Assembly (NCBI GenBank): GCA_020621985.1
Contig: JAHRYS010000001.1
Location: forward strand, 712,459-776,458
Direction: 5' to 3'
Origin: Candidatus Ferrigenium altingense
Lineage (GTDB): Bacteria; Pseudomonadota; Gammaproteobacteria; Burkholderiales; Gallionellaceae
DNA length: 64,000 bases
Shown here: one piece after another, positions 23,192-39,661 of the stretch
Layout of the letters: every line of letters begins with the position of its first letter
Position numbering within the stretch: the first letter of the stretch is position 1
The notes under the pieces: model-generated
What the model saw: only the letters and a program-made list of their open reading frames with translations
Database searches by the model: none
What the model was told of the DNA's origin: nothing
Made by a program: the position numbers and the translations under genes

Positions 23192-23225
23192 ATCGGCCTT
23201 ATGCAAAGCTTTGCATAAGGCCGAT
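23192..23225. repeat. 34-bp perfect palindrome at the outer end of RIT copy 1
   Basis: Half-sites ATCGGCCTTATGCAAAG and its exact complement abut without a spacer. The right end overlaps the first bases of the RIT terminal repeat. A matching palindrome lies at the outer (right) end of RIT copy 2 at 39630-39661, but none lies at the inner ends. Confidence 0.85.
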
Positions 23226-23373
23226 TATGCAAAGTCATTGATTATGGAAAGTAGCTGGGCTAATAGGCGGCAAGGCCCAGGCAGCAAGGGGGTTAGCAGC
23301 AGGTAACAGTGCTGTGAACTAGACATAATCTCAGCGATGATCTGAAGTAACGGCTCCACTTTAGGAGACCGTT

Positions 23374-24333
23374 ATGAAACCTACCACTTCGCACCAGGCC
23401 AAACCGAAGGCCCGGATACCTACATCATTTTCGGTGCACATTGCCGACGAGCTACGCCTTTACGATGCACATCTACGTGACGTGCGAGGACTGGCAACCA
23501 GTACACGCAAGGGACGTCTTCACGTTGTCGGCTTGCTGCTGCAAGAGAAATTCAAGGGGCGCGCTATCGAGATCGGTAAGCTGCATCCCGACGATATTCG
23601 CCAATTCCTGGCAGCCCAGCAGAATGGAAAGCAGTCAGCTTCTTATTCATCTCACCTGGCAGCGACCTTGCGTAGCTACCTGCGTTACCGAGCCACTTGT
23701 GGTGACCAGGTCGGCAAGCTGACAGCAGTCATCCTGAATCCCGTTCATTGGAAGCTGGCATCGCTCCCGCGTGCGCTCAATCCAGAGCAGGTCGAGCGTT
23801 TGTTGAGCAGCATTTCCACCGCTCGCCGATGGCCAAAGCGCGGGTATGCCATTGTTCGCTGCGCACTGGACATGGGGTTACGTGCTGGCGAAATCGCCCA
23901 TCTCATGATCAGTGACATCGACTGGCGTGCCGGCATCGTGACGTTGCGTGGCACGAAGTCACTGCGGCAGGACGTCCTGCCCTTGCCGATGGAAACTGGA
24001 CAAGCACTGGCTGACTATCTGCAACACGAACGTCCGTCCACCAATCACCCTGCCATCTTCGTCCGAAAGATGGCGGGGCAAGAGCAGCCCATCACCTCTG
24101 CAGCGATCCAGAAGTTAATCAAACGAGCCTGCCGTCGCATTGGTTTGCCACATTCCAGTGCACATGCACTCCGGCACACTGTCGCGTGTCGCCTGGTCGA
24201 GAACGGCAGTTCGCTCAAGGAGGTTGCCGATCTGCTGCGCCACCGCTCTCTGAATACCGCTCTGATATATGCCAAGCTAGACACGCCAAAGCTGGCAGCC
24301 GTTGCCCTGCCGTGGCCGGGGAGCAAATCATGA
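23374..24333 (+). CDS. RIT recombinase 1 (tyrosine recombinase)
   Basis: A 319-residue tyrosine recombinase, first of the trio; AGGAGA precedes the ATG. Seen: N-terminal core-binding domain with YDAHLRDVRGLATSTRKGRLH, catalytic Arg in DMGLRAGEIAHL, a Lys in RGTKSLRQDVLPL, SAHALRHTVACRL (H-x-L-R-H), and LLRHRSLNTALIYAKLD with the Tyr nucleophile. It overlaps the next gene by 4 bp (ATGA). In RIT elements the three proteins are thought to act together in transposition. Confidence 0.92.
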   Translation: MKPTTSHQAKPKARIPTSFSVHIADELRLYDAHLRDVRGLATSTRKGRLHVVGLLLQEKFKGRAIEIGKLHPDDIRQFLAAQQNGKQSASYSSHLAATLRSYLRYRATCGDQVGKLTAVILNPVHWKLASLPRALNPEQVERLLSSISTARRWPKRGYAIVRCALDMGLRAGEIAHLMISDIDWRAGIVTLRGTKSLRQDVLPLPMETGQALADYLQHERPSTNHPAIFVRKMAGQEQPITSAAIQKLIKRACRRIGLPHSSAHALRHTVACRLVENGSSLKEVADLLRHRSLNTALIYAKLDTPKLAAVALPWPGSKS

Positions 24334-25304
24334 GTGCGCACATCAGCTTGCAAAGAAGGGTCGACGATTATCTTGCGGAACGCCGTCGTCTTGGGTTCGC
24401 ATTGCGATCACGAGATACATTCCTGGCAGGATTTGCCGACTATGTGGCCAAATGCCATCATCGTGGGCCACTGACAGTCGAACTCATGACCGACTGGATA
24501 CGCCAAGGCAAAGATGGGCAAGGCTCGCCAGGAACGTGGGCTCGCCGTCTGGGGAAGTTGCGGTCATTTGTCCGCTACCTTAAACAGTTCGAGCCGGATA
24601 CCGAGGTACCAGACGAGTCGATCTTTGGGCCGGAACCTGGTCGCGTGGCGCCGCATATTTACCGTGAAGAGGAGATCGTCGAGTTGCTGGCGGCTGCTCG
24701 TCAGCTTGGGCCACACGGTAGTTTGCGTCCGATGACCTTCGAAACTTTGTTCGGCCTGATGGCATCAACCGGACTGAGGGTCTCTGAGGCGATTAACTTG
24801 CGTGATGATGATGTCGATCTCAAGCATGGGATGCTGACCATCCGGCAAACCAAATTCGCCAAGTCTCGTCAGTTGCCCTTGCATCCGAGTACCGTCGCGG
24901 CGTTGAGTCATTACCGCCGACAGCGTGTGCGGCATATTCCCACTACAGCTGACAGCCCGTTTCTTATTGGCAGTCGTGGCCGGTGTCTTGGGCAATCGAT
25001 CGGGGAACGTCAAGCGCATCGCGTCTTCAATGCAATACGTGACAGCTTGGGCTGGGCCAATCGCGGTGCTCATGCGGCACCACGGCTTCATGATCTGCGC
25101 CACACCTTTGCCGTCAGGCGCATGTTGCTCTGGCATGCCGATGGCACCGACATCGACCAAATGATGCTGGCGCTATCGACCTACATGGGGCACGCCGAGA
25201 TCTTCTACACCTACTGGTACCTCACGGCTGTCCCGGAATTGATGGCCTTGGCCGGAGGGAAGTTCGAGCGTTTCGCTGATATCGCAGGAGGCAACGATGC
25301 GTAG
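24330..25304 (+). CDS. RIT recombinase 2 (tyrosine recombinase)
   Basis: A 324-residue tyrosine recombinase starting MSAHISLQRR at the ATGA overlap with recombinase 1. Seen: catalytic Arg in ASTGLRVSEAINL, a Lys in RQTKFAKSRQLPL, RLHDLRHTFAVRR, and YMGHAEIFYTYWYL with the terminal Tyr. All catalytic positions are present. It overlaps the third gene by 8 bp. Confidence 0.92.
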   Translation: MSAHISLQRRVDDYLAERRRLGFALRSRDTFLAGFADYVAKCHHRGPLTVELMTDWIRQGKDGQGSPGTWARRLGKLRSFVRYLKQFEPDTEVPDESIFGPEPGRVAPHIYREEEIVELLAAARQLGPHGSLRPMTFETLFGLMASTGLRVSEAINLRDDDVDLKHGMLTIRQTKFAKSRQLPLHPSTVAALSHYRRQRVRHIPTTADSPFLIGSRGRCLGQSIGERQAHRVFNAIRDSLGWANRGAHAAPRLHDLRHTFAVRRMLLWHADGTDIDQMMLALSTYMGHAEIFYTYWYLTAVPELMALAGGKFERFADIAGGNDA

Positions 25305-26310
25305 GCAAACAAAGTCACCACCCTCATTTGCCGCGCTTGTCCAAGCGTACTTTGCCGAGTACCTGACTCAACAGCGGGCGCTCAGCGCACAGACCATCGC
25401 CGCCTATCGGGATGGCTTTGTGCTCTTTCTCGACTTTGCCGAAGCGCGGCTGGGTAAATCGCCGTCCGCGATGGCGCTGGCCGACATTACGCCGGAACTC
25501 ATCATAGCCTTCCTCGATCATCTGGAACGCCAGCGGCACAATTCCGTGCGCAGTCGCAATGCACGCCTGGCGGCACTGCGATCCTTCTTGAAGTTCGCTG
25601 CACACCGGGACGTGGCATCGTTGCAGGTGATCGAACGCGCGTTGGGAGTTCCGGTGAAACGGTTCGAGCGCCCAATGTTCGGCTATCTGTCACGCGAGGA
25701 AATGCTGGCGGTAATTGGTACGCCGGATGATTCCTGGCTGAGCCAGCGTGATCATGTCCTGTTTCTGCTCATGTACAACACCGGGGCGCGCGTGTCGGAG
25801 ATCATCGGGATCAAGGTCGGCGATGTGGTTCTCAACGACCGTGCTGCCTGCGTCCATCTGCGCGGCAAGGGGCGTAAGCAGCGCAGTGTGCCACTGTGGA
25901 GTTCGACCGTGAAGGCGGTGCGTGCCTGGCTGCGGGTGAATCCGGAAGTCCAGCCAGCATCGCCATTGCTGCCCAGCCGGAATGATCGCGTGATGACCAG
26001 AACCAATGTTGCGCTCAGGTTGGCATTGGCGGTCAAACGTGCAACCGATTCATGCCCCGCTTTGGCAAAGCGGCGAGTGTCACCACACACCATCCGCCAC
26101 ACTACGGCGATGCATCTGTTGCAGGCCGGCGTCGACATCAGCGTCATCGCCCTTTGGCTCGGTCATGAGAGCCCAGTCACTACCCATCATTACGTCGAAG
26201 CCGATCTGAGTATGAAGGAGCGCGCCTTGGCCAAACTCCATGAGCCAGAGGCAAAAATCCAGCGCTATCGGGCACCTGACTCGCTGATCAGCTTCCTCAA
26301 GACGCTTTGA
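25297..26310 (+). CDS. RIT recombinase 3 (tyrosine recombinase)
   Basis: A 337-residue tyrosine recombinase and last of the trio; AGGAGGCA lies upstream inside recombinase 2. Seen: YNTGARVSEIIGI with the catalytic Arg, RGKGRKQRSVPL with the Lys, SPHTIRHTTAMHL, and WLGHESPVTTHHYVEAD with the Tyr. It ends about 60 bp before the right inverted repeat. Confidence 0.92.
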   Translation: MRRQTKSPPSFAALVQAYFAEYLTQQRALSAQTIAAYRDGFVLFLDFAEARLGKSPSAMALADITPELIIAFLDHLERQRHNSVRSRNARLAALRSFLKFAAHRDVASLQVIERALGVPVKRFERPMFGYLSREEMLAVIGTPDDSWLSQRDHVLFLLMYNTGARVSEIIGIKVGDVVLNDRAACVHLRGKGRKQRSVPLWSSTVKAVRAWLRVNPEVQPASPLLPSRNDRVMTRTNVALRLALAVKRATDSCPALAKRRVSPHTIRHTTAMHLLQAGVDISVIALWLGHESPVTTHHYVEADLSMKERALAKLHEPEAKIQRYRAPDSLISFLKTL

Positions 26311-26606
26311 TTATGCAAAGCTCGGAATTCGCGCCGGGCGCTGCCAAGCAGCTCTTGGTGCGTGTTCCGATCTGCTACTTTCCATAATCAATGACTTTGC
26401 ATAATCGGCCAAAGCCGACGCTGAAGTTTTCATGAAAAACCAGATTATTCATCCTACCTGAGAGTCCGCTTCTTAAAACTGCCAATGCCTAGTGCTCCGA
26501 AGCTACCCTCCAATGCCGCAAGTCAAAGGGCCACTTTGGCAGCGAAATCAGTCGTTCAGCTCTAATGTCCCTAGACTTGGGGCTATGCTGGAGATAGACT
26601 GATCCA

Positions 26607-28082
26607 ATGAGCGACGACCCCCATTCGGTTTTGATCACAAAGGACAATCCCAAACTCGCATCGCTGAAGAAGTCTTGGGTAACTGCGGTTTTCACCGCAG
26701 AGGATGGAATGGGTTCGATGGATTCACTTCACCAAGCCGGGGATTCAATCGTTGCGATGGCCACAATGACACCCGAAGGGTCTATGGTGATTGGTAGCGG
26801 GGTCATGGTTGGGCCTGGATTGATACTGTGCGCCACCCACGTCTTGGACGAATTCCCCAAGGAAGGTGCGGGCCCAGTTTGCCTCACATTCCTACCCGGC
26901 AGAGCTAGGGCATGGCTTTCACGCGGCCGAACTACTTTAACTGGGCCGAGCGACTTTGATCCGAATCGAAGTCGGGTCTCTGATCTCACTCTTATGAGCT
27001 GCAGTCTGAACTCTGAGGCTCACGAGGACTTTCCGTTGATGCTCGCCCCCATAAAGCTGGCTTTGCCTTTGATCGGGGAGAGGCTGTGGGCTTTTGGCTA
27101 TCGCCATGGTGATATTGTCGTAGGCACTTCGTCGCTCACACCTTGCGTTACTTCGGGTCTCGTGACCGCTTGCTTTCCTCAAGGTCGAGGTGAGCGTATG
27201 CCAGCAACGTGCATTGAAGTGGCGATGGATTCGATTGGAGGCATGAGCGGTGGTCCCGTGGTGAATGACGATGGCTGGCTTGTAGGGATCATCTCATCTT
27301 CATTTGAAGGTGGCCCCACCTATGTCACCTTACTCTGGGATGCACTCCGTTTGTCGGTCAGTGGCGCACCGCAAAGCGTTTGGCCCGAAGGTGATGTGAA
27401 CCTATTCATGGGCCGCGAACTCGGTTTGGTCTTTATCAAGGGGGACGGAACACTCGACGAAAAGGGAAACGTCACCATTACCCTGTCAACCCCTGAAATG
27501 GAGCAGTTGGCCAAGTTTAGTGATCCGATACACGTCACGCGGCGTGACGCCCTCTCCTGCACGAGAAAATTCCTCGATGACGCTCAACTTGAAAGCTTCG
27601 AAGAGAAGTGGTCGCGCGAAATGGAGGAGGCAGCTTCCACCGCCGCCCTTGAGCATCTCGGGAGGCTAACGCTGCCGTCAGTATGTGAGTTTTTGGCCGC
27701 TGCCGACATTCACGCAAACTGCCTTACGTCGATTCGGCACTTCTCTGTGGAAGATTTCGAAGGGTTGGAGGATCCGGCAGTGATCTCTGTTGAAGAAAGA
27801 GAAGGCACAACGCTCACTGTATCGTATTCCTTCGATCTGCTATCCGTTATTTGGACGGTGGAGATCTCCAGCACAGACTATTTTTCGAGAGCTGCGGATT
27901 TCGAAGAACACTTTCTGAACGTTGCAGTTGATGGCGAGACTACGAGCATGGAGGTGATCCAGCGCTGCTTCTTCGAGGCAGAACTGCTGTTCAACCCGGT
28001 GAGCGAGGAATTCACACGTGCCTCAATTACTCGCTCGGGCGTCAAACACCGCAGAAGGCGGGATCAAGCAAGAAGCAAGTGA
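26607..28082 (+). CDS. trypsin-like serine protease with unknown C-terminal domain
   Basis: A 491-residue protein. Residues about 45-245 are a trypsin/S1-fold protease: catalytic His in LILCATHVL (H78), Asp in RVSDLTL (D126) and Ser in IGGMSGGPVV (S214), the last typical of HtrA-like and conflict-system trypsins. No signal peptide, so it is probably cytoplasmic, which is unusual for trypsin folds and common in defence or regulated-cell-death systems. Residues about 290-491 are an alpha/beta domain I cannot name. It opens the RIT-enclosed cargo, about 250 bp upstream of the ATPase operon and on the same strand. Confidence 0.82.
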   Translation: MSDDPHSVLITKDNPKLASLKKSWVTAVFTAEDGMGSMDSLHQAGDSIVAMATMTPEGSMVIGSGVMVGPGLILCATHVLDEFPKEGAGPVCLTFLPGRARAWLSRGRTTLTGPSDFDPNRSRVSDLTLMSCSLNSEAHEDFPLMLAPIKLALPLIGERLWAFGYRHGDIVVGTSSLTPCVTSGLVTACFPQGRGERMPATCIEVAMDSIGGMSGGPVVNDDGWLVGIISSSFEGGPTYVTLLWDALRLSVSGAPQSVWPEGDVNLFMGRELGLVFIKGDGTLDEKGNVTITLSTPEMEQLAKFSDPIHVTRRDALSCTRKFLDDAQLESFEEKWSREMEEAASTAALEHLGRLTLPSVCEFLAAADIHANCLTSIRHFSVEDFEGLEDPAVISVEEREGTTLTVSYSFDLLSVIWTVEISSTDYFSRAADFEEHFLNVAVDGETTSMEVIQRCFFEAELLFNPVSEEFTRASITRSGVKHRRRRDQARSK

Positions 28083-28333: not shown

Positions 28334-28477
28334 ATGGAGATCATAGGAATATTCATAGGCATCAATAAGCGCATTGGCGAGAGGATTTTCGTTTTGTGTG
28401 AGGCCAGTGGTGATGTCACGCCACTGTGGGCGCGGTTCACCGATATGGTCGAAGGCGAAGGATCGCAGCTGGCATGA
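28334..28477 (+). CDS. 47-aa peptide coupled to the ATPase operon
   Basis: A short frame (MEIIGIFIGINKR...) with TAAGGGG 8 bases before the ATG and an ATGA overlap with the next gene. The signals suggest it is translated. It may be a leader peptide or the shrunken N-terminus of a larger lost protein; FIGINK recalls the first strand of caspase-like domains, but this is too short to rely on. Confidence 0.45.
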   Translation: MEIIGIFIGINKRIGERIFVLCEASGDVTPLWARFTDMVEGEGSQLA

Positions 28478-29388
28478 GCGACTACTTCAGCGATCGAGAG
28501 AATGGTACACGTGCACGCACTGAACAAGTGATATCGCCAACCGTATGGGCCGGTTTGGTGGCAACGGTACAGGCGTTGAACAATAGCGGTGCATTCGGCT
28601 TACGCTTTCCCGAGCGCTGCACAGATGGGCAAGTAATTTGTGGCAGCGATTCCGATGCATTGGCAGCTTCCGTGATCGCAGAAATGCCCGGTTTGGCGTG
28701 GCCTCTTGCAACCACTGCCACTGTGGGGGAAGGGTACTTTTCAGAGCACCAGCCGTTCGCACCGGATACGCTGCTTATTCTTGATTTCATTGAATTCGTT
28801 CATGCTTCAGTGGCGAAGGCAATTCCGGGAAAGTACCACGACTACCTCAACCACTACCATCTGACGTTCGATCAAGAAGTTGGGCGGGAGGAGTTCCGTT
28901 CAATCATCAATCGCATGTTCGCGCGTAACGGCGTTGCATTCGAGATGCTGCCAAATGGCCGAATTGTGCGACTGCTTCCGCCTGTGCTTGGTGAGGATAT
29001 GAAGCGGGCGGTGTTCAATACTGGAGATCGAACGCTCGACAACATGCTGGATGAATGCCGAGCGAAATTTTCTGACCGCAATCCTCTGTTGCGCAGAGAA
29101 GCTCTGGAGCGTTTGTGGGACGCTTGGGAGCGGCTCAAGTCCCTTGCAGACCCAAGCGACAAAAAGAAATCGATCAAGATCATCCTCGACGCTGTTACTT
29201 CGGAGCCATCGCTGCGGGCAAGAATAGAAGTGGAAGCGACGGAGTTGAATTCCATTGGAAACAGCCACCTGATTCGTCACTCCGAGGTCAGTCAGGTGCC
29301 AGTCATTGATGTTGATCACATCGACTACTTATTCTATCGTCTATTCGCGATGATCCAACTAATGCTTAGAAAAAAGGGGAACGTGTGA
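28474..29388 (+). CDS. abortive-infection-like protein, first main gene of the ATPase operon
   Basis: About 304 residues from MSDYFSDREN, chosen by the ATGA overlap with the small upstream frame; a GTG at 28426 would add 16 residues. Seen: a C-terminal segment IRHSEVSQVPVIDVDHIDYLFYRLFAMIQLMLRK that resembles the C-terminal helical domain of AbiJ-like proteins, and a middle helical domain (RDPLLRREALERLWDAWERLKSL-like). The N-terminal part is unassigned. Its end overlaps the next gene by 4 bp (GTGA). Probable role: sensor or effector of a defence operon; AbiJ relatedness is my reading and not proven. Confidence 0.6.
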   Translation: MSDYFSDRENGTRARTEQVISPTVWAGLVATVQALNNSGAFGLRFPERCTDGQVICGSDSDALAASVIAEMPGLAWPLATTATVGEGYFSEHQPFAPDTLLILDFIEFVHASVAKAIPGKYHDYLNHYHLTFDQEVGREEFRSIINRMFARNGVAFEMLPNGRIVRLLPPVLGEDMKRAVFNTGDRTLDNMLDECRAKFSDRNPLLRREALERLWDAWERLKSLADPSDKKKSIKIILDAVTSEPSLRARIEVEATELNSIGNSHLIRHSEVSQVPVIDVDHIDYLFYRLFAMIQLMLRKKGNV

Positions 29389-30017
29389 AAGCTCGTACGC
29401 CACACCGTGACGCAATCCGGATACTTTTCATCCTGAACGCTGGTGGAACGCCATTAACCGATCCGAACGATGCCATGGTAGCCAAAATTTTCAAAGGGGA
29501 AGCACGATTGCATGCATTTGATTTCTGGATGCGCAACCCGGACTACTTGGCTAGCGAACTGTTAGATACCTTTGAGACCACAGGCAATGTCAAGCATCGC
29601 CAAGCCGCTGAAGCGATCTTCGAGAACGATGAGCCTGACCTGCGGCGCGTTCCGATGATCCGCTATCTGTTTGGTGCCTATGAACGCCTAGACGATGCGC
29701 TTTCTTTACTTCGGTCGCGTGACTTGGTGCGTATAACCGGAATCAAAGGGCAAATAAAGGTTCATGAGACCGATTTTATTTTGACTGTTCGCGGGATGGA
29801 TGTTTGTTCGAATGCAGTTGTACAGGAGCCAGTTCTTGAGTGGTATGCCAACCGGGCGGCCTTGGTTGCGGATATCGCAGGTGCACGCGGTGGCGGCGCT
29901 CTCAAGAAGAAGCAATATGAACAGGCAACGTACGCCCAAACTCAGCTCGGCGGAATCATTCCTCCTATTGGGCAGTCGGTGCAAAGAAGACTGATTCAAC
30001 TCAAACAAGCAGCCTGA
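29385..30017 (+). CDS. winged-helix 'middle component'-like protein
   Basis: A 210-residue protein with a GTG start preceded by AGGGG. The segment about 95-140 (ALSLLRSRDLVRITGIKGQIKVHETDFILTVRGMDV) reads as a winged helix-turn-helix; the rest is helical with a Tyr/Gln-rich tail. Size, fold and position directly before an ABC/SMC-like ATPase match the middle components of ABC-three-component (ABC-3C) conflict systems. It would bridge the ATPase to an effector. No catalytic motif is seen. Confidence 0.6.
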   Translation: MKARTPHRDAIRILFILNAGGTPLTDPNDAMVAKIFKGEARLHAFDFWMRNPDYLASELLDTFETTGNVKHRQAAEAIFENDEPDLRRVPMIRYLFGAYERLDDALSLLRSRDLVRITGIKGQIKVHETDFILTVRGMDVCSNAVVQEPVLEWYANRAALVADIAGARGGGALKKKQYEQATYAQTQLGGIIPPIGQSVQRRLIQLKQAA

Positions 30018-30027
30018 AGGAGGATAT

Positions 30028-31983
30028 ATGGCAAAAGAGAGCATGGAGTGGCTGGATGCCATCGCCAGTCGAGCAAAGGTAGATATAAATCGCGTAGAGT
30101 CGGTGTTGACCGCGCGCCATATAGTGCCGACCCCAGTTCTGCCGGCTCCACGCAGGATGAAGCTTCTGAGCATTTCTTTCGGTGGAGAGAAGCAGGGGGT
30201 AGAGGACGACGGCCCTTACACTTTCGAGTGGAAAAACCTCAGTGAAGGGCTATGGGGAATGATGTCAGACCGAAACCTACGGGGAAAATCGTCGGTCATT
30301 GAAATCGTACGCTGGCTGATGCGCGGGAGCCCATCATCGAATCTCCAAGATGATGTCAAGGCATGGATACACAATGCTAGCCTTCGCTTCGATCTTGATG
30401 GATTCGAATACGAAGTGAGAGTCGACTGTAGCAATGGCTCTGCCGGTGTTCTGACTCGGAAATCTTCGCCGACTGAAAATGCAACGGTGCTAGCTTCTTT
30501 TAGTAGCGAAAAGCAATTCGAGATGGTTATGTCGGATTTTTTTCTGCGCACGTTTTCAATGGAAGGACTTGCAACATGGCGTGAGAGCGATACAGAAGAG
30601 AAGACTGGTCATGCGGTAATTCATGGCTGGCCGGCGTTGTCGGGGGCAATGTTCATTGGCACCAACTATGACGTAGTGTTAGGTGATCTGCCAGCCACAT
30701 CAGGAACGCAGGCGCGTCTTATTCAGATGTATCTTGGGGTTCCATGGATCTCTACTTTGGCCACGGCATTAGCGGCGCAGAAACTAGTGACGTCAAGCAA
30801 TGAACTGGAGGCACGCCGACGCAGTCAAGGTGCCCAAGCTAAGCAGGCTAGAGTCAAAGAGATAGAGTTATCGCTCGCAGAAAAACGAGAAGCATTGAAA
30901 ATGAAACCCTCGGATGAAGTCATTCAGAATGAGCTATCACAACTGAGCGGCAAGTACTCGGAGACCAAACGCCGAGAGAAGGCAATGCAAGAACGCCTTG
31001 ATCGCGAAATACTTGCCGAGCAACAATCAAATGCTGCTTACCTGCAAGACCGTCGCGACATACAAGCCCACAAGGATTCGACTGCGGCTGGTTCGATCTT
31101 TCGTTTACTCGATCCGACTTGTTGCCCCCGTTGCGATCATGAGATCGACCAGATAAAGAAAAAAAAGGAGGCGATCAATCATTCATGTTCGGTATGTGGA
31201 GAAAGCATTTCGAGCAGCGAGGATGCTGATATCTTACTGAAAGAGTTAGAGGCAAGGATAAAAGCGTCGAAATCGGCATTTGACAAAGCCAGTAAAGACC
31301 GAAAGTTGGCTGAAGAGAGCCTAGATATATTGCAAACGGAACTGGAAAGCATTCAAACAAAGACACAAGCATTGACGGAGCAGCTTGGTTCGTTCGAGAG
31401 TCGGAGACTCCTCTCAAACGAGATTGCAATTCTCGAAGGCCGCCTTGAAGAGGCAAGTTTTGATTCTGGTACTGATGTTGTTGTGGACGATGAAGCAGTT
31501 GTACTCAAAGCCATTGTCACAGAGACTGATTTACGATCCAAAGCAGTCCGCGACGAATATCTCGAAGAAGTATCTACCAGCCTTTTGCGCTTTGCCAAGA
31601 GCTTCGGGATGCACAGCTTGTCGAAGGCTCAGCTACGTGGAAATGCAAACCTGATGTTGGTTAAAGGTGGAGCTGACACATCGTTTAGCAAGGTGACGAA
31701 GGGCGAACGCCTCCGCTTGAAAGTTGCTACTGTTCTCGCCATGATTGAGGTTGGCGAACGCAGAGGTGTTGGAAGACACCCTGGTCTAATTATGATTGAT
31801 TCACCCGCTGCACAGGAAGTCGCACCAGAGGATCTGCGTGAACTGTTCTCCGGTTTAATGAGCATTCGCGGGGAAATTCCTCATCTTCAGATTTTTGTGG
31901 CGGGCATGACATCGAAAGCCATGTGCGATCACATTCCACCTAGCAATCGTAAGGAAGCCCTCAACGGAGGCTATCTTTGGTAG
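30028..31983 (+). CDS. ABC/SMC-like ATPase with zinc-finger hinge
   Basis: A 651-residue protein with AAGGAGG before the ATG. Seen: an N-terminal nucleotide-binding half with a short Walker A variant NLRGKSSVIE (about 83-92); two long coiled-coil arms (about 255-350 and 395-470); between them a zinc-hook-like hinge with two CxxC pairs (CPRC and CSVC, about 364-390); then a signature-like VTKGERLRLK (about 553) and Walker B GLIMIDSPA (about 585). This is the Rad50/SMC architecture with a zinc hinge in place of a hook. The Walker B acidic residue is followed by Ser-Pro rather than Glu. Likely the DNA-sensing ATPase of the operon. Confidence 0.8.
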   Translation: MAKESMEWLDAIASRAKVDINRVESVLTARHIVPTPVLPAPRRMKLLSISFGGEKQGVEDDGPYTFEWKNLSEGLWGMMSDRNLRGKSSVIEIVRWLMRGSPSSNLQDDVKAWIHNASLRFDLDGFEYEVRVDCSNGSAGVLTRKSSPTENATVLASFSSEKQFEMVMSDFFLRTFSMEGLATWRESDTEEKTGHAVIHGWPALSGAMFIGTNYDVVLGDLPATSGTQARLIQMYLGVPWISTLATALAAQKLVTSSNELEARRRSQGAQAKQARVKEIELSLAEKREALKMKPSDEVIQNELSQLSGKYSETKRREKAMQERLDREILAEQQSNAAYLQDRRDIQAHKDSTAAGSIFRLLDPTCCPRCDHEIDQIKKKKEAINHSCSVCGESISSSEDADILLKELEARIKASKSAFDKASKDRKLAEESLDILQTELESIQTKTQALTEQLGSFESRRLLSNEIAILEGRLEEASFDSGTDVVVDDEAVVLKAIVTETDLRSKAVRDEYLEEVSTSLLRFAKSFGMHSLSKAQLRGNANLMLVKGGADTSFSKVTKGERLRLKVATVLAMIEVGERRGVGRHPGLIMIDSPAAQEVAPEDLRELFSGLMSIRGEIPHLQIFVAGMTSKAMCDHIPPSNRKEALNGGYLW

Positions 31984-34007
31984 CTGTCGCCCCAAGACCG
32001 CAGTTTCATTCGGTGGAAACTAAGCTGCATGCATTGCTGCGCGAAGGGAAAATACCCCACGTTGAGGATATAGGGGGGCGCGATGTGATTGCTGAGGCGA
32101 TTCCCTCGCTGGCGACATCCCCATTGGCCAGCGAGATTCTCTCCGCTGTTCTACGAGACGTGGGACGCATATCTGCCGATGATGCGACCCCATGGAAGGA
32201 GCTAATCAAACGATTGGTGCAAGGCGCCACAAGCGACTTCGTGCTGATCGAAATGGTGGATGCCATCGATGCTTGCCAGCAACTACCCGATGGAGCCGCT
32301 AGCGACGTTTTCATGGTTTTCCTGCAAAAGGCAGGCGATGCTTCGGGCGTCCTTGCAGGCTATGCGCGCGCTGTCGCACTTGAAGGCGCTTTTCGCTTGG
32401 CGGTGACGGATCGTCGAATGCAGCTACGCCTCCTTGATACCCTACTGGGGATTCAAGTATCCGACGATCCGCAGTTCCTTCGCTACGCCGCAAAAATCAT
32501 GGGAGTTGCGCATTCTCATTGGCGCGAAGCGGAATTGGTAAATATGCTGCGCACCCTGTCTGAATGTGAAGGGGTGGCTTATGAGGCAAGCTTTGAGCTG
32601 GGGATGGCAGGGTTGGCTTTGGCTCTGAATGAAGCCAAGAGAGATGTGGCGACCACGTTCTTCATGGATTCGTTGCTTTGGTTCAAGAAGGCTGAGTCAA
32701 TGCCAGGGGCAACACCAGAGGCTGCACTGTACGGAGAGTGCCTCACGCTGCTGACTGATTTCGAAGAACATAAGACTGAGCAAGAGTTAAGAAAACGCAG
32801 TACAGTCATTCAGAAATCGGCCTTCGAACTGCTCGCTTGGTATGCCGATCCAAACTCGCCGACTTGGCTGGGCGCTCGACATTTTCAGGCAGCATGCTGG
32901 AACGATCTCGCTTACACCCTAGTGTCGCTTGCCGACAGTCTGCAAAAAGTAAGCTGGTGGGAGCCTCGTGTCGTGATCGAAAGGCAGGTTCTTGCTGCCT
33001 ATAGCGCGGGACGAGCAATCCTGAAACGGAGTGGCGACGGATACATTGAGACTTTGATTCGCCCTAGAATCGAGTCTTCTATAGCGCAGCGCGAAGGACA
33101 AGCCTACCTCTTGAAGCACTGGCTGCAACAGTACCAAGATCACGAATTGGTTCCTGAAGCCAAAGCCATCTTGAATGGTATCGATCATATGATGGCAGAT
33201 CGACCAGAGGTGCAGCGCAACCCCATTGAGGCAGCCACCGTTTGGGCACCGGTCGCTGCCGTACTTTCACAAGTCCACGCAAGCAATGAAACCACACGTA
33301 GGGTTGGCGAACTCGTCGCAAATGCATTTGCATCTAGTCTTGAAAACCTCAGTGGGGGAGAGATTGAAATCTTCAACCAATGTCGTACTTCAGTTGAGCA
33401 TCATCCAGATCATCGCGACAGCGTTCGTGGTGCCAAGTTGTTTGATACCGTCTTATTGTGGACTGTGCGGTTTCTCGGGAACCGGCTTGAAATGACTAAA
33501 AAAGACGATCCATCTGTAGCCTATCTTTTTGAAAAAACTGACGGCACCTTGCCACCAGAGAGCGCACTTCAGGACGACTATTTTTGTTGGCTTAACACCC
33601 TATCTGCATCGGGCGAAATTGAATCGACAAATATTGGTGGCGGGCGTGCTGACGTGGTACTGAAGACTACCGGAGAGCGTATCGTCATAGAAATCAAACG
33701 TGAGATGAAGGATGCAACATTTGATTCTTTGGCGAAGAGCTACGCTGGTCAAACCACCGATTATCAAAATGTCAGTATTCGATTAGGTTTTTTGTTGGTA
33801 CTTGATCTCACAGAAGCTAAGCGTGAAGGCACGCCGCACATTCGTTCTCTGGTGCAATGCCGATCTATACAAAGGACAGGTGAAACAGAATCACGACAGG
33901 TTGTGATCATAAAGGTACCGGGTCGGCGCTACTTGCCAAGCGAGATCAGCAGGGGCGCAAAACGCTTAACCACTTTGGGCAATCATGCGGCGCCCCAGTC
34001 TAAGTAG
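31977..34007 (+). CDS. large protein with C-terminal PD-(D/E)XK nuclease
   Basis: A 676-residue protein starting with TTG, well supported by GGAGG six bases upstream and by a 7-bp overlap with the ATPase gene. Residues 1 to about 530 are helical, possibly repeat-like. The C-terminus carries GGGRADVVL followed by RIVIEIKRE (about 553-580), the D...ExK core of PD-(D/E)XK nucleases. It is likely the DNA-cutting effector of the operon. I do not recognise the N-terminal part. Confidence 0.72.
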   Translation: MVAVAPRPQFHSVETKLHALLREGKIPHVEDIGGRDVIAEAIPSLATSPLASEILSAVLRDVGRISADDATPWKELIKRLVQGATSDFVLIEMVDAIDACQQLPDGAASDVFMVFLQKAGDASGVLAGYARAVALEGAFRLAVTDRRMQLRLLDTLLGIQVSDDPQFLRYAAKIMGVAHSHWREAELVNMLRTLSECEGVAYEASFELGMAGLALALNEAKRDVATTFFMDSLLWFKKAESMPGATPEAALYGECLTLLTDFEEHKTEQELRKRSTVIQKSAFELLAWYADPNSPTWLGARHFQAACWNDLAYTLVSLADSLQKVSWWEPRVVIERQVLAAYSAGRAILKRSGDGYIETLIRPRIESSIAQREGQAYLLKHWLQQYQDHELVPEAKAILNGIDHMMADRPEVQRNPIEAATVWAPVAAVLSQVHASNETTRRVGELVANAFASSLENLSGGEIEIFNQCRTSVEHHPDHRDSVRGAKLFDTVLLWTVRFLGNRLEMTKKDDPSVAYLFEKTDGTLPPESALQDDYFCWLNTLSASGEIESTNIGGGRADVVLKTTGERIVIEIKREMKDATFDSLAKSYAGQTTDYQNVSIRLGFLLVLDLTEAKREGTPHIRSLVQCRSIQRTGETESRQVVIIKVPGRRYLPSEISRGAKRLTTLGNHAAPQSK

Positions 34008-34585
34008 TATATTCAGTCTGCCGTTAACCTCCATGGAGCAGCAATGAAAAAAGCTATCGATGCTTACGACCAACTGGGCAAGATAATCGAAGTTGAATCA
34101 TGGCTTGAAGAGCATGGATTGAAAGTTCATAACACTAGATATACAGGCGCGAAGAAGTTATTAAGTCAAGGTGTACAGGCGGGAGAAATTGACGAAGACC
34201 AAATGGTGCCGTTTCAATGGGCTCTTCTGGAGTTAGACGATTACTTACAAATTTATGAGTATCTGCGCAACGTCACGCATCGCCGGTTCCTTGATACGCT
34301 AGCAAAATCTCTCAAGGGGCCACATCAAAATAAATTTGAAGGCAAAGGGGCAGATACGGCGGGAAGAAATTTTATGTTTGAGTTGGTGATAGCAGCCAAG
34401 CTGGCGCAACTTGGCTTTGATGTTAGTTTTGATGGTGACGCTGACGCAACACTAAAGATTGATAAATACATTATTCACGTTGAGTGCAAACAACCGCTGG
34501 GAGCAAATATGAACGCGTTGTTGATAGATGCGTTTAAACAAATACGCAATCGATGTGAACAGGCAGTTGTAATGAAAAACGAATA

Positions 34586-35937
34586 GGGGGTGTCCTGCAT
34601 TTTGTGTAAACGGGGTTTCGTCTAACTCGGTGAAATCCGCTCTTCAAACTGGATAGTGAAGCGGTTCAGAGCGGCTTTCCAGTCCCGGATTGGCATTGTC
34701 CATTTCTTGCTGATGTTTCTTAGCGCCAGGTAAAACAGCTTGGTCACCGCATCGTCGGTCGGGAATGAACTGCGAGTTTTGATGACTTTGCGCAAGCTCA
34801 TGTTAATCGATTCGATGGCGTTTGTCGTATAGATTACTTTTCGGATTTCCGGTGGATAGTCGAAAAACGGGATGATCCGCGCCCAGTTCCGCCGCCAGCT
34901 CAGCCCGATAGATTGGTAGTCCTTGTCCCATTTCTTCTCGAAGTCGGTCAGCCTTTGTTCGGCGAGTTCGACGGTCGATGAGGTGTAAATCAGCTTCAGA
35001 TCGGCGGCGACTTCCTTCTGCATTTTCCACGGCACAAAGTTCAGGCTGTTGCGTACCATGTGCACGATACACAGCTGCACAGCCGCTTTCGGATAGACTG
35101 CTTCGATGGCTTCAGGGAAGCCTTTGAGCCCGTCGACACAGGCGATAAAGATGTCTTGCACGCCGCGCGTCTTCAGCTCAGTGACCACCTGCAGCCAGAA
35201 CTTGGCGCCCTCGGTTTGGGCGATCCACAGCCCCAATACTTCCTTGTGCCCATCCATGTTCACGCCGATCGCCAAATACACCGCTTTGGTTCGTACCGCA
35301 CCGGCGTCGCGCACTTTGACGTGGATGCAGTCCAGATAAAGAATCGGGTACAGCGGATCGAGCGGGCGGGCCTGCCATATCTTCACATCCTCGCTCACAG
35401 CGTCCGTGACCGCCGAGATGAGGCTCGGTGACACCTCGGTGCCATACATCTCTTCCAGGTGCCCTTGGATCTCCCGCACGCTCAGGCCGCGTGCATACAG
35501 CGAGATGATCTTGTCGTCGAAACCGGACCAGCGGGTCTGGTGCTTGGCAACAAGTTGCGGCTCGAACGCGCCTTGGCGGTCGCGCGGAATGTCCAGCGGC
35601 AACTCGCCAAAATCACCCTGCAAGGTCTTGGCGCTGTGGCCGTTGCGGGTATTGCCGGTGCGGTTGGTCACGGCGCCGCTTTTGCCGTGGCCGAGGTGTT
35701 CGGACATCTCGGTTTCGAGCGCCCGCTCAACCAGCATCTTGGTCAACTGCTTGAGCAGGCCGTTCTCGCCAATCAGGTCTTCGGGTTTCTGGTAGTTGGC
35801 CAGCAGGGCGTCGGCCAGTTTTACTAGTTCGGGGTCGGGTTTAACTCGTTTGCTACGCTTTGGTTCGGTCATTGTTGCTCCTTTATGCCGGCAGTCTCCT
35901 GCCAAATGACCGTTTACACAAAACTAATTACACCCTC
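34586..35937 (-). mobile_element. IS256-family insertion sequence
   Basis: A 1352-bp element. Its imperfect terminal inverted repeats share a TTTTGTGTAAACGG inner core and begin G(G/A)GGGTGT. It is flanked by an exact 8-bp direct repeat AACGAATA (34578-34585 and 35938-35945), which is the duplication size expected for IS256-type transposition. It has one transposase gene and sits inside a cargo gene. Confidence 0.93.
34622..35872 (-). CDS. IS256-family transposase (mutator type)
   Basis: A 416-residue DDE transposase; start MTEPKRSKRV chosen because AAGGAG precedes it. Seen: the family blocks ILYLDCIHVKVRD (first Asp), IACVDGLKGFPEAI (second Asp), QLCIVHMVRNSL, and YTTNAIESINMSLRK with the catalytic Glu. 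Length is normal for the family and no damage is visible, so the element may still be active. Confidence 0.94.
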   Translation of the reverse strand: MTEPKRSKRVKPDPELVKLADALLANYQKPEDLIGENGLLKQLTKMLVERALETEMSEHLGHGKSGAVTNRTGNTRNGHSAKTLQGDFGELPLDIPRDRQGAFEPQLVAKHQTRWSGFDDKIISLYARGLSVREIQGHLEEMYGTEVSPSLISAVTDAVSEDVKIWQARPLDPLYPILYLDCIHVKVRDAGAVRTKAVYLAIGVNMDGHKEVLGLWIAQTEGAKFWLQVVTELKTRGVQDIFIACVDGLKGFPEAIEAVYPKAAVQLCIVHMVRNSLNFVPWKMQKEVAADLKLIYTSSTVELAEQRLTDFEKKWDKDYQSIGLSWRRNWARIIPFFDYPPEIRKVIYTTNAIESINMSLRKVIKTRSSFPTDDAVTKLFYLALRNISKKWTMPIRDWKAALNRFTIQFEERISPS

Positions 35938-36598
35938 AACGAATATGGTATTGCCGCAATTTGCCTGACCCGTTATATCGCCAAAGAGTCTCATCGGAAT
36001 GGGCCTTTGATCGCCGAACAAGATGCAATTGAGGCTGAAATGAAAGATACCGTCTCGAAATTTGATTTTTCAAATCTACGTGAGAAATTTCCACAAGGGA
36101 TTGGTGTGATCACACATTTTGCATTGCCGTTCTGGACGCCTGACGACATGAGGTTGAACATGCTTCGACGGTTTGACTTTCATCAACTGCTTCCGAATAA
36201 TCACGAAGCAGTGCAGACAATTCAAAAGCAATGGTGTGCCTGACGACTTCAACACCTGCTTCGCGCCCAGAGTAACTCCGTCAAGTCAATTTCGTAGATT
36301 CTATTATGATTGTCAGCAATAGCTGATATAGGATAAATCGAACTTCCTGAATGTGTTGGAATGGAAGCTTTAAAAACTTGAAACCCGGACGTTCCCGTAA
36401 GCTGATCCGTCAGCCATTTCACAAAAACGTCACAGTCCGCTTAGGCCGATTATGCAAAGTCATTGATTATGGAAAGTAGCTGGGCTAATAGGCGGCAAGG
36501 CCCAGGCAGCAAGGGGGTTAGCAGCAGGTAACAGTGCTGTGAACTAGACATAATCTCAGCGATGATCTGAAGTAACGGCTCCACTTTAGGAGACCGTT

Positions 36599-37558
36599 AT
36601 GAAACCTACCACTTCGCACCAGGCCAAACCGAAGGCCCGGATACCTACATCATTTTCGGTGCACATTGCCGACGAGCTACGCCTTTACGATGCACATCTA
36701 CGTGACGTGCGAGGACTGGCAACCAGTACACGCAAGGGACGTCTTCACGTTGTCGGCTTGCTGCTGCAAGAGAAATTCAAGGGGCGCGCTATCGAGATCG
36801 GTAAGCTGCATCCCGACGATATTCGCCAATTCCTGGCAGCCCAGCAGAATGGAAAGCAGTCAGCTTCTTATTCATCTCACCTGGCAGCGACCTTGCGTAG
36901 CTACCTGCGTTACCGAGCCACTTGTGGTGACCAGGTCGGCAAGCTGACAGCAGTCATCCTGAATCCCGTTCATTGGAAGCTGGCATCGCTCCCGCGTGCG
37001 CTCAATCCAGAGCAGGTCGAGCGTTTGTTGAGCAGCATTTCCACCGCTCGCCGATGGCCAAAGCGCGGGTATGCCATTGTTCGCTGCGCACTGGACATGG
37101 GGTTACGTGCTGGCGAAATCGCCCATCTCATGATCAGTGACATCGACTGGCGTGCCGGCATCGTGACGTTGCGTGGCACGAAGTCACTGCGGCAGGACGT
37201 CCTGCCCTTGCCGATGGAAACTGGACAAGCACTGGCTGACTATCTGCAACACGAACGTCCGTCCACCAATCACCCTGCCATCTTCGTCCGAAAGATGGCG
37301 GGGCAAGAGCAGCCCATCACCTCTGCAGCGATCCAGAAGTTAATCAAACGAGCCTGCCGTCGCATTGGTTTGCCACATTCCAGTGCACATGCACTCCGGC
37401 ACACTGTCGCGTGTCGCCTGGTCGAGAACGGCAGTTCGCTCAAGGAGGTTGCCGATCTGCTGCGCCACCGCTCTCTGAATACCGCTCTGATATATGCCAA
37501 GCTAGACACGCCAAAGCTGGCAGCCGTTGCCCTGCCGTGGCCGGGGAGCAAATCATGA
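36599..37558 (+). CDS. RIT recombinase 1, copy 2
   Basis: A 319-residue tyrosine recombinase identical in sequence to the product of 23374-24333, with all catalytic residues (R in GLRAGE, K in GTKSLR, HxLRH, Tyr in ALIYAK). Coupled to recombinase 2 by a 4-bp overlap. Confidence 0.92.
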   Translation: MKPTTSHQAKPKARIPTSFSVHIADELRLYDAHLRDVRGLATSTRKGRLHVVGLLLQEKFKGRAIEIGKLHPDDIRQFLAAQQNGKQSASYSSHLAATLRSYLRYRATCGDQVGKLTAVILNPVHWKLASLPRALNPEQVERLLSSISTARRWPKRGYAIVRCALDMGLRAGEIAHLMISDIDWRAGIVTLRGTKSLRQDVLPLPMETGQALADYLQHERPSTNHPAIFVRKMAGQEQPITSAAIQKLIKRACRRIGLPHSSAHALRHTVACRLVENGSSLKEVADLLRHRSLNTALIYAKLDTPKLAAVALPWPGSKS

Positions 37559-38529
37559 GTGCGCACATCAGCTTGCAAAGAAGGGTCGACGATTATCTTG
37601 CGGAACGCCGTCGTCTTGGGTTCGCATTGCGATCACGAGATACATTCCTGGCAGGATTTGCCGACTATGTGGCCAAATGCCATCATCGTGGGCCACTGAC
37701 AGTCGAACTCATGACCGACTGGATACGCCAAGGCAAAGATGGGCAAGGCTCGCCAGGAACGTGGGCTCGCCGTCTGGGGAAGTTGCGGTCATTTGTCCGC
37801 TACCTTAAACAGTTCGAGCCGGATACCGAGGTACCAGACGAGTCGATCTTTGGGCCGGAACCTGGTCGCGTGGCGCCGCATATTTACCGTGAAGAGGAGA
37901 TCGTCGAGTTGCTGGCGGCTGCTCGTCAGCTTGGGCCACACGGTAGTTTGCGTCCGATGACCTTCGAAACTTTGTTCGGCCTGATGGCATCAACCGGACT
38001 GAGGGTCTCTGAGGCGATTAACTTGCGTGATGATGATGTCGATCTCAAGCATGGGATGCTGACCATCCGGCAAACCAAATTCGCCAAGTCTCGTCAGTTG
38101 CCCTTGCATCCGAGTACCGTCGCGGCGTTGAGTCATTACCGCCGACAGCGTGTGCGGCATATTCCCACTACAGCTGACAGCCCGTTTCTTATTGGCAGTC
38201 GTGGCCGGTGTCTTGGGCAATCGATCGGGGAACGTCAAGCGCATCGCGTCTTCAATGCAATACGTGACAGCTTGGGCTGGGCCAATCGCGGTGCTCATGC
38301 GGCACCACGGCTTCATGATCTGCGCCACACCTTTGCCGTCAGGCGCATGTTGCTCTGGCATGCCGATGGCACCGACATCGACCAAATGATGCTGGCGCTA
38401 TCGACCTACATGGGGCACGCCGAGATCTTCTACACCTACTGGTACCTCACGGCTGTCCCGGAATTGATGGCCTTGGCCGGAGGGAAGTTCGAGCGTTTCG
38501 CTGATATCGCAGGAGGCAACGATGCGTAG
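37555..38529 (+). CDS. RIT recombinase 2, copy 2
   Basis: A 324-residue tyrosine recombinase identical to the product of 24330-25304. Start at the ATGA overlap; overlaps recombinase 3 by 8 bp. Confidence 0.92.
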   Translation: MSAHISLQRRVDDYLAERRRLGFALRSRDTFLAGFADYVAKCHHRGPLTVELMTDWIRQGKDGQGSPGTWARRLGKLRSFVRYLKQFEPDTEVPDESIFGPEPGRVAPHIYREEEIVELLAAARQLGPHGSLRPMTFETLFGLMASTGLRVSEAINLRDDDVDLKHGMLTIRQTKFAKSRQLPLHPSTVAALSHYRRQRVRHIPTTADSPFLIGSRGRCLGQSIGERQAHRVFNAIRDSLGWANRGAHAAPRLHDLRHTFAVRRMLLWHADGTDIDQMMLALSTYMGHAEIFYTYWYLTAVPELMALAGGKFERFADIAGGNDA

Positions 38530-39535
38530 GCAAACAAAGTCACCACCCTCATTTGCCGCGCTTGTCCAAGCGTACTTTGCCGAGTACCTGACTCAACAGC
38601 GGGCGCTCAGCGCACAGACCATCGCCGCCTATCGGGATGGCTTTGTGCTCTTTCTCGACTTTGCCGAAGCGCGGCTGGGTAAATCGCCGTCCGCGATGGC
38701 GCTGGCCGACATTACGCCGGAACTCATCATAGCCTTCCTCGATCATCTGGAACGCCAGCGGCACAATTCCGTGCGCAGTCGCAATGCACGCCTGGCGGCA
38801 CTGCGATCCTTCTTGAAGTTCGCTGCACACCGGGACGTGGCATCGTTGCAGGTGATCGAACGCGCGTTGGGAGTTCCGGTGAAACGGTTCGAGCGCCCAA
38901 TGTTCGGCTATCTGTCACGCGAGGAAATGCTGGCGGTAATTGGTACGCCGGATGATTCCTGGCTGAGCCAGCGTGATCATGTCCTGTTTCTGCTCATGTA
39001 CAACACCGGGGCGCGCGTGTCGGAGATCATCGGGATCAAGGTCGGCGATGTGGTTCTCAACGACCGTGCTGCCTGCGTCCATCTGCGCGGCAAGGGGCGT
39101 AAGCAGCGCAGTGTGCCACTGTGGAGTTCGACCGTGAAGGCGGTGCGTGCCTGGCTGCGGGTGAATCCGGAAGTCCAGCCAGCATCGCCATTGCTGCCCA
39201 GCCGGAATGATCGCGTGATGACCAGAACCAATGTTGCGCTCAGGTTGGCATTGGCGGTCAAACGTGCAACCGATTCATGCCCCGCTTTGGCAAAGCGGCG
39301 AGTGTCACCACACACCATCCGCCACACTACGGCGATGCATCTGTTGCAGGCCGGCGTCGACATCAGCGTCATCGCCCTTTGGCTCGGTCATGAGAGCCCA
39401 GTCACTACCCATCATTACGTCGAAGCCGATCTGAGTATGAAGGAGCGCGCCTTGGCCAAACTCCATGAGCCAGAGGCAAAAATCCAGCGCTATCGGGCAC
39501 CTGACTCGCTGATCAGCTTCCTCAAGACGCTTTGA
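38522..39535 (+). CDS. RIT recombinase 3, copy 2
   Basis: A 337-residue tyrosine recombinase identical to the product of 25297-26310. All catalytic positions are retained. Confidence 0.92.
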   Translation: MRRQTKSPPSFAALVQAYFAEYLTQQRALSAQTIAAYRDGFVLFLDFAEARLGKSPSAMALADITPELIIAFLDHLERQRHNSVRSRNARLAALRSFLKFAAHRDVASLQVIERALGVPVKRFERPMFGYLSREEMLAVIGTPDDSWLSQRDHVLFLLMYNTGARVSEIIGIKVGDVVLNDRAACVHLRGKGRKQRSVPLWSSTVKAVRAWLRVNPEVQPASPLLPSRNDRVMTRTNVALRLALAVKRATDSCPALAKRRVSPHTIRHTTAMHLLQAGVDISVIALWLGHESPVTTHHYVEADLSMKERALAKLHEPEAKIQRYRAPDSLISFLKTL

Positions 39536-39629
39536 TTATGCAAAGCTCGGAATTCGCGCCGGGCGCTGCCAAGCAGCTCTTGGTGCGTGTTCCGATCTGC
39601 TACTTTCCATAATCAATGACTTTGCATAA

Positions 39630-39661
39630 TCGGCCTTATGCAAAGCTTTGCATAAGGCCGA
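39630..39661. repeat. 32-bp perfect palindrome at the outer end of RIT copy 2
   Basis: Half-site CGGCCTTATGCAAAG joined to its exact complement, extended by one complementary base each side. It shares its central 32 bp with the palindrome at 23192-23225 on the far side of copy 1. Together they bracket the RIT-cargo-RIT unit symmetrically. Confidence 0.85.

Follow-up and report, generated by a model that had tools for sequence, protein, structure and literature searches.

A probable Lamassu operon with a predicted C-terminal effector nuclease and a clade-specific AbiJ-NTD4 gene in Candidatus Ferrigenium altingense

Introduction

According to a review of the Lamassu superfamily (PMC10586767), which includes the ABC-three-component (ABC-3C) systems, the LmuB proteins of Lamassu carry zinc hooks and the effectors work by abortive infection. 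LmuB generally has a Glu-to-Gln replacement at the Walker B catalytic site, so that ATP hydrolysis may be slow or may not occur at all, and LmuA is described, in wording that presents this as likely and not as a definition, with an N-terminal effector domain and a variable C-terminal docking domain (PMC10586767). In the present study, we analysed a stretch of 64,000 nucleotides (nt), referred to below as the window, from Candidatus Ferrigenium altingense (assembly GCA_020621985.1, contig JAHRYS010000001.1, positions 712,459 to 776,458 of the forward strand), and within it an operon of four genes, A to D (28474-34007). A first-pass annotation had regarded this operon as a candidate undescribed defence system; the results presented here very probably place it in the Lamassu superfamily, whose members act against phages and plasmids.

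Identification of the Lamassu genes and their relatives

The four tightly packed + strand open reading frames (ORFs) proposed earlier at 28474, 29385, 30028 and 31977 were confirmed. Gene A (28474-29388; 304 aa) encodes an AbiJ_NTD4 protein, gene B (29385-30017; 210 aa, GTG start) the middle component LmuC, gene C (30028-31983; 651 aa) the SMC/Rad50-like ATPase LmuB with its zinc hook, and gene D (31977-34007; 676 aa) the effector LmuA, with a predicted C-terminal PD-(D/E)xK nuclease. A and B overlap by 4 nt, B and C are separated by a 10-nt gap, and C and D overlap by 7 nt. A scan for promoters and terminators gave counts not above those in shuffles.

Comparison with the PADLOC profiles revealed that B matches LmuC (PDLC03872; 2.2e-80; profile positions 8-216 of 220), C matches LmuB (PDLC03864; 1e-213; positions 1-657 of 657) and D matches LmuA (PDLC03853; 4.6e-209; positions 2-654 of 655). 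Two additional LmuB models match C (PDLC03859, 4.7e-17, and PDLC03863, 9.7e-14), as does the SbcC-like PHROG 77 (3.4e-6). Neither Pfam nor NCBIfam has a model that reaches its curated cut-off with the product of B, C or D, and the Pfam family AAA_23 was weakly matched in only 2 of 21 LmuB proteins; because the three proteins fall below these cut-offs, the operon can look unknown.

When a collection of 84,980 species genomes was scanned using a few exact peptides of C, and hence not exhaustively, 20 loci were detected, in all of which B, C and D are collinear. The identity of LmuB to the protein of the window was 80-82% in L002-L009, 48-49% in L010-L015 and L018, 41% in L016-L017 and 31-32% in L019-L021. 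One more LmuB operon is carried by a viral contig (L036), and LmuB relatives were detected in 36 plasmid records, 25 of which are from Streptomyces; B, C and D are consecutive in all five of the further loci, i.e. the four plasmids inspected and L036. Within 369 sampled genomes of the window's class, LmuC was found in the window's own genome only.

Predicted active sites of LmuB and LmuA

In the 21-row alignment of LmuB, residues N83 and R85-G86-K87 of the Walker A motif (NxRGK[ST]) are invariant, and so are D591-S592-P593 of Walker B (IDSP), in which the catalytic Glu is replaced by Ser. The Asp-Ser pair is kept in 26/26 LmuB proteins when five more (L035, L036 and L045-L047) are added to the 21 aligned; three of the five have DSP and the remaining two DSA and DSV. 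Serine at this position fits the same reading of slow or absent hydrolysis as the Gln of other LmuB proteins, and the ATPase is probably non-hydrolysing. In the hinge (CPRC...CSVC), C369, C387 and C390 are invariant in 21/21 proteins, and C366 is absent solely from L020. The Rad50/SMC-like ATPase with a CxxC...CxxC hinge that had been recognised at first reading was thus upheld by the LmuB match and by the conservation of the hook cysteines and of K87.

In LmuA, G556-R557-A558-D559 and E572-x-K574 (the GRAD...ExKRE motif) are invariant in all 21 aligned proteins, and D...ExK is present in 26/26 when the same five loci are included (GRAD in four of them, GRTD in one). The AlphaFold2 (AF2) model of LmuA, with a mean predicted local distance difference test score (pLDDT) of 78.8 and a predicted template modelling score of 0.59, has a helical N-terminus of about 500 aa (residues 12-503) and a C-terminus composed of helix 528-543, strands 548-554, 557-562 and 568-576, helix 582-590 and strand 603-610. 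This alpha-beta-beta-beta-alpha-beta order, with D559 and E572/K574 located in the expected strands, is what we take to be a PD-(D/E)xK fold. Both the invariant motif and the strand order of the model agree with the earlier proposal that this large protein ends in such a nuclease. No literature naming both Lamassu and PDDEXK was found.

Gene A encodes an AbiJ-NTD4 protein restricted to close relatives

The product of gene A matches Pfam AbiJ_NTD4 (PF18863) at its N-terminus (4.4e-14; 53.6 bits, with a cut-off of 34) and, end to end, the PADLOC candidate family PDC-S32 (PDLC04995; 6.6e-46). The profile searches therefore give three of the four genes the name of a known system, Lamassu, and the fourth only that of a PADLOC candidate. 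The first-pass annotation was right in calling A AbiJ-like, but its description of the protein as helical is doubtful, because AbiJ-NTD4 has been described as an alpha+beta domain that occurs in fusions with AbiJ-type HEPN domains and with heat repeats (PMC3710099).

An alignment of 21 A-family proteins revealed a C-terminal region with an invariant W, ERxK and GN...IRHxE, in which none of the 21 proteins has an Arg 4-6 residues ahead of the invariant His. Since the canonical HEPN RNase motif is Rx4-6H, RNase activity of A is doubtful; the protein may be non-catalytic, possibly a sensor or scaffold. A therefore resembles the AbiJ family (HEPN superfamily) in its N-terminal domain and in its full-length PDC-S32 match, but differs from it in this C-terminus and in adjoining Lamassu genes. 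The AF2 model of A (mean pLDDT 38.6) was too unreliable for use, and comparison of the A alignment with solved structures gave three weak, chance-like matches only (E 0.054).

The nine closest operons are those of the window and L002-L009, and an intact A is located directly 5' of lmuC in six of them (the window, L002, L004, L005, L006 and L008); L005 comes from Zoogloea oleivorans. L003, from Uliginosibacterium gangwonense, has a 51-residue C-terminal remnant of A upstream of lmuC. The 48 nt immediately 5' of lmuC agree with the 3' end of A at 30 positions in L007 and at 33 in L009, compared with at most 26 and 27 positions at any other place in the respective locus and with 17-24 in nine outgroup loci; for L007 this is weak evidence of a putative remnant. 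In L009, an intact A is also found 2 kb 3' of lmuA. Genes that are presumably TniQ/transposition-like end just before the remnant in L003 (L003:5019-8074), which suggests that a mobile element cut the 5' part of that operon.

Using tblastn, we detected no A in the fetched stretches, some of them short, of the 12 more distant lmuCBA operons (L010-L021) or of the five further loci on plasmids and viral contig L036. The extra abortive-infection-like protein noted earlier is thus real, but specific to one clade, being intact in 6/9 close and 0/17 distant operons. PDC-S32 was found in 5/369 genomes of the window's class, the window's own included, and the 10-16 kb retrieved from the remaining four contain nothing related to B, C or D. 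Thirty plasmid records contain an A relative; none of their accessions occurs among the 30 of 36 LmuB records listed, and the eleven A regions inspected contain no relatives of B, C, D or the AbiE proteins of this clade (see below). A scan of viral contigs with the A alignment, limited to two peptide patterns, found no relative. On a Pseudomonas plasmid, an A relative directly follows an Abi_2 protein (L032:4046-5918), and in L030:6740-8573 another directly follows a DUF6602 protein that PADLOC matches to NucC/PD-DExK. It is possible that A serves abortive-infection genes as a promiscuous accessory.

The protein distances of A correlate with the distances of B, C and D (r 0.94, 0.89 and 0.90; 7 loci), and 3, 2 and 16 of the 5040 possible orderings, the true one included, gave correlations as high. 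In the comparison with L004, the ratio of nonsynonymous to synonymous substitution rates (dN/dS) was 0.074 for A, 0.08 for B, 0.08 for C and 0.13 for D, with dS of 0.8 to 1.4; for A against L008 it was 0.069, near the values of the other genes. In the remaining four comparisons of the window's A, dS was at least 3 and in two cases infinite, so dN/dS there means little. Taken together with the distribution, A appears to be a clade-specific, co-inherited accessory of these Lamassu operons, which does not imply the role of a subunit.

An AbiE pair precedes gene A in related operons

In all six genome-scan relatives with an intact A (L002, L004, L005, L006, L008 and L009), the genes of AbiEi and AbiEii are located directly before it, mostly with 4-nt overlaps. 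Of the 20 genome-scan relatives, these six are the only ones with the pair. The order is AbiEi-AbiEii-A-LmuC-LmuB-LmuA in five of the six, and in L009 the trio lies 3' of lmuA. The family profiles (DUF6088 and PF08843; AbiEi and AbiEii of PADLOC) were run for L004 and L009; in L008 the AbiEii gene is frameshifted. Neither AbiEi nor AbiEii is present in the window (best tblastn E 2.7). Its homology to the relatives, as determined by blastn, tblastn and DNA alignment, begins at 28458, and the 16 nt upstream of the ATG of A (28458-28473, + strand) correspond to the 3' end of abiEii in the relatives. The tree node at which L009 parts from the remaining close operons, that of the window among them, has a bootstrap value of 44, so that both a loss of the pair from the window and its gain by the sister operons fit the tree.

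The distances of A also correlate with those of AbiEi (r 0.85; 3 of 720 orderings as high) and AbiEii (r 0.93; 10 of 120), and the corresponding values for LmuB are 0.97 (2 of 720) and 0.93 (4 of 120). As the correlations of A are based on 5 to 7 loci, of which three are close, we read them as showing common descent rather than pointing to a particular partner.

In plasmids, the best 40 of 410 AbiEii records have no accession in common with the 30 A records, and two such regions with a close AbiE pair carry it without A; on a Comamonas plasmid the pair is found by itself next to genes for replication and partition. The A region of L038 has a differently annotated AbiEi/AbiEii pair about 1.9 kb off on the opposite strand. 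LmuCBA, A and AbiE are thus each found without the others, as independent modules, and are joined in this clade. The operons of the clade are like AbiE type IV toxin-antitoxin loci in having the pair directly 5' of intact A in 6/6 relatives, and unlike them in that the window has no such pair; on the Comamonas plasmid the close pair occurs on its own. The available part of the literature on Lamassu with AbiE and AbiJ-NTD4 describes no operon linkage of AbiE or AbiJ with Lamassu.

Weighing of alternative interpretations

We consider it very likely that the operon, with the order lmuC-lmuB-lmuA, belongs to the known Lamassu/ABC-3C lineage and shares its general mechanism. Several observations weigh against this assignment. 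For B, as for D, only one PADLOC model matches, and the names LmuC and LmuA therefore depend on gene order and on PADLOC curation. A sequence search of the LmuA, LmuB and LmuC alignments against solved structures found no relative, and Foldseek with the LmuA model returned nothing below E 0.001 in two libraries, the top matches being mostly helical proteins. Moreover, the nuclease motifs of LmuA are located at residues 559-574 of 676, i.e. C-terminally, and the effector domain of the review is N-terminal, so the layout is reversed; PADLOC itself names this reversed-layout protein LmuA. The reversed layout, and the lack of Pfam and NCBIfam matches for the three proteins at curated cut-offs, would also suit a defence system of an entirely new category, with no relation to Lamassu. 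Such a system is extremely improbable: the PADLOC matches are full-length, LmuB matches two further LmuB families, and the three-gene make-up and the altered Walker B position are as in described Lamassu, which refutes the idea at the family level unless the PADLOC naming of three models is mistaken. The first-pass annotation, in which no match to Lamassu was seen, therefore has to be revised, since three of the four genes match LmuC, LmuB and LmuA over their length and in the same order, while the likeness to ABC-three-component systems that it pointed out was well founded, as the review places these within the Lamassu superfamily (PMC10586767). The operon represents a Lamassu lineage of its own, marked by the reversed effector and by Ser in place of Glu in Walker B.

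The place of gene A in this lineage allows more than one interpretation. It might be an integral fourth component, a second sensor or effector under the control of LmuB-LmuC, as suggested by its position directly 5' of lmuC (intact in 6/9 and as a 3' remnant in 3/9 of the closest operons), by the stop/start overlap with lmuC, by its co-inheritance with B, C and D at low dN/dS, and by its integrity in the window despite the missing AbiE pair. We nevertheless think this unlikely, because L003 and L007 retain LmuCBA with mere remnants of A, all 17 more distant operons lack A in the stretches fetched (some short), and A relatives occur without B, C and D in 4/4 genome and 11/11 plasmid regions. 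Alternatively, A could belong to the AbiE module, an AbiEi-AbiEii-A unit having settled before Lamassu, with the A of the window as its leftover. The constant position of the pair immediately 5' of A in 6/6 relatives and the arrangement of L009, where the trio is downstream of lmuA and only a remnant of A remains upstream of lmuC, would agree with such a unit, and the distances of AbiEi and AbiEii do track A, though LmuB no less. Close AbiE pairs nevertheless occur without A (the best 40 of 410 AbiEii plasmid records have no accession in common with the A records, and two such regions carry AbiE without A), none of the 11 plasmid A regions contains relatives of these AbiE proteins (the pair near A in L038 being of another annotation), and the window's A has no sign of decay, all of which makes this origin rather unlikely. 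It is likewise improbable, in our estimation, that AbiE, AbiJ-NTD4 and the nuclease Lamassu form one co-inherited, overlapping six-gene immune operon under shared control, in which A would be a dedicated partner or a second effector released by LmuB, and of which the window would hold a reduced four-gene form. Beyond the shares given to A as a subunit and as a partner of AbiE, most of the remaining probability falls to A as an independent accessory.

Genomic surroundings of the operon

The neighbours of the operon were surveyed in 19 of the 20 genome-scan loci (L017 excluded), taking from each locus up to six of the closest ORFs with a length of 200-1100 aa. Of the resulting 100 ORFs, 75 were used, after removal of 13 AbiE/A ORFs of the operons and of 12 that we regarded as probably spurious. 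The 75 proteins matched 33 families, 25 of which were listed. At E 1e-20 the defence-like neighbours were GajB (three times), GajA (twice), a single type III methyltransferase, a type III restriction enzyme, ThsB and others. Genes of the gajA/gajB type appear near the Lamassu operon in L005:13858-16420, L006:13905-17100 and L013:14552-16084, where the assignment of ORFs was inferred from the sequence. With regard to the enrichment in defence islands considered in the first-pass annotation, these are descriptive counts without a random-locus baseline, which place some relatives near Gabija and type III restriction-modification genes.

In the window, two 100% identical 3,193-nt blocks (23218-26410 and 36443-39635), each with three tyrosine recombinase genes and in direct orientation, flank a 10-kb segment that contains the operon. 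At the outer ends, 23193-23255 and 39599-39661 form a perfect inverted repeat of 63 nt, and a search of the source genome (81% complete) with the 2,937-nt core detected no further copy. The blocks look like a composite of two elements that we assume to be of the recombinase-in-trio (RIT) type. On either side of the left trio are genes for a caspase-domain protein (21195-22943; Pfam Peptidase_C14, 1.5e-20; PADLOC PDC-S65, 3.8e-50) and a trypsin-like protease (26607-28082; Trypsin_2, 3.9e-12); the two may belong to a further defence locus that the trio has split. Just 3' of lmuA, a 180-aa ORF (34044-34586), for which neither Pfam nor PADLOC gave a family of useful score, reaches a Mutator/IS256-type insertion sequence (34588-35935; 26-nt inverted repeats at 34588-34613 and 35910-35935, 81% complementary) and appears to be interrupted. 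Both the trypsin-like gene and this interrupted gene were rejected as members of the operon, as neither has a relative in any of the 20 genome-scan loci (tblastn, E 1e-3).

Discussion

The operon shares with Lamassu, DdmABC and ABC-3C systems (i) an SMC/Rad50-like LmuB with a zinc hook and a Walker B motif without the catalytic Glu, (ii) a small LmuC and a nuclease LmuA, (iii) a compact operon and (iv) the location of some relatives near other defence genes. In contrast to what the review describes, the nuclease of LmuA lies behind about 500 aa of helices and not at the N-terminus, the catalytic Glu is replaced by Ser instead of Gln, and an extra gene A is present upstream in this clade.

The analysis shows the order of the genes, their family matches, the conserved motifs, the co-inheritance and the distribution; each biochemical step of the mechanism proposed below, which follows the studied Lamassu systems, as well as co-transcription and any role of A, is inferred. 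LmuB would dimerise via its zinc hook and be kept ATP-bound by the probably non-hydrolysing Asp-Ser Walker B. LmuB-LmuC would sense DNA ends or hairpins that arise as a phage or plasmid replicates, with LmuC linking LmuB to LmuA, and the binding of DNA would release the C-terminal PD-(D/E)xK nuclease of LmuA from the helical N-terminal domain. The freed nuclease would then degrade DNA, leading to death or arrest of the cell before the invader spreads, i.e. to abortive infection. A is most likely a separate defence factor encoded by the same transcript, and in the sister operons AbiEi, a predicted DNA-binding antitoxin that is first in the order, may repress the entire operon.

The analysis thus corrects the call of a new system to a known family, three of the four genes being already described. 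It also provides a natural series of operons, comprising six-gene forms, the four-gene form of the window and three-gene forms with remnants of A, which allows one to ask whether toxin-antitoxin and Abi genes located 5' of Lamassu lend it regulation or additional effectors.

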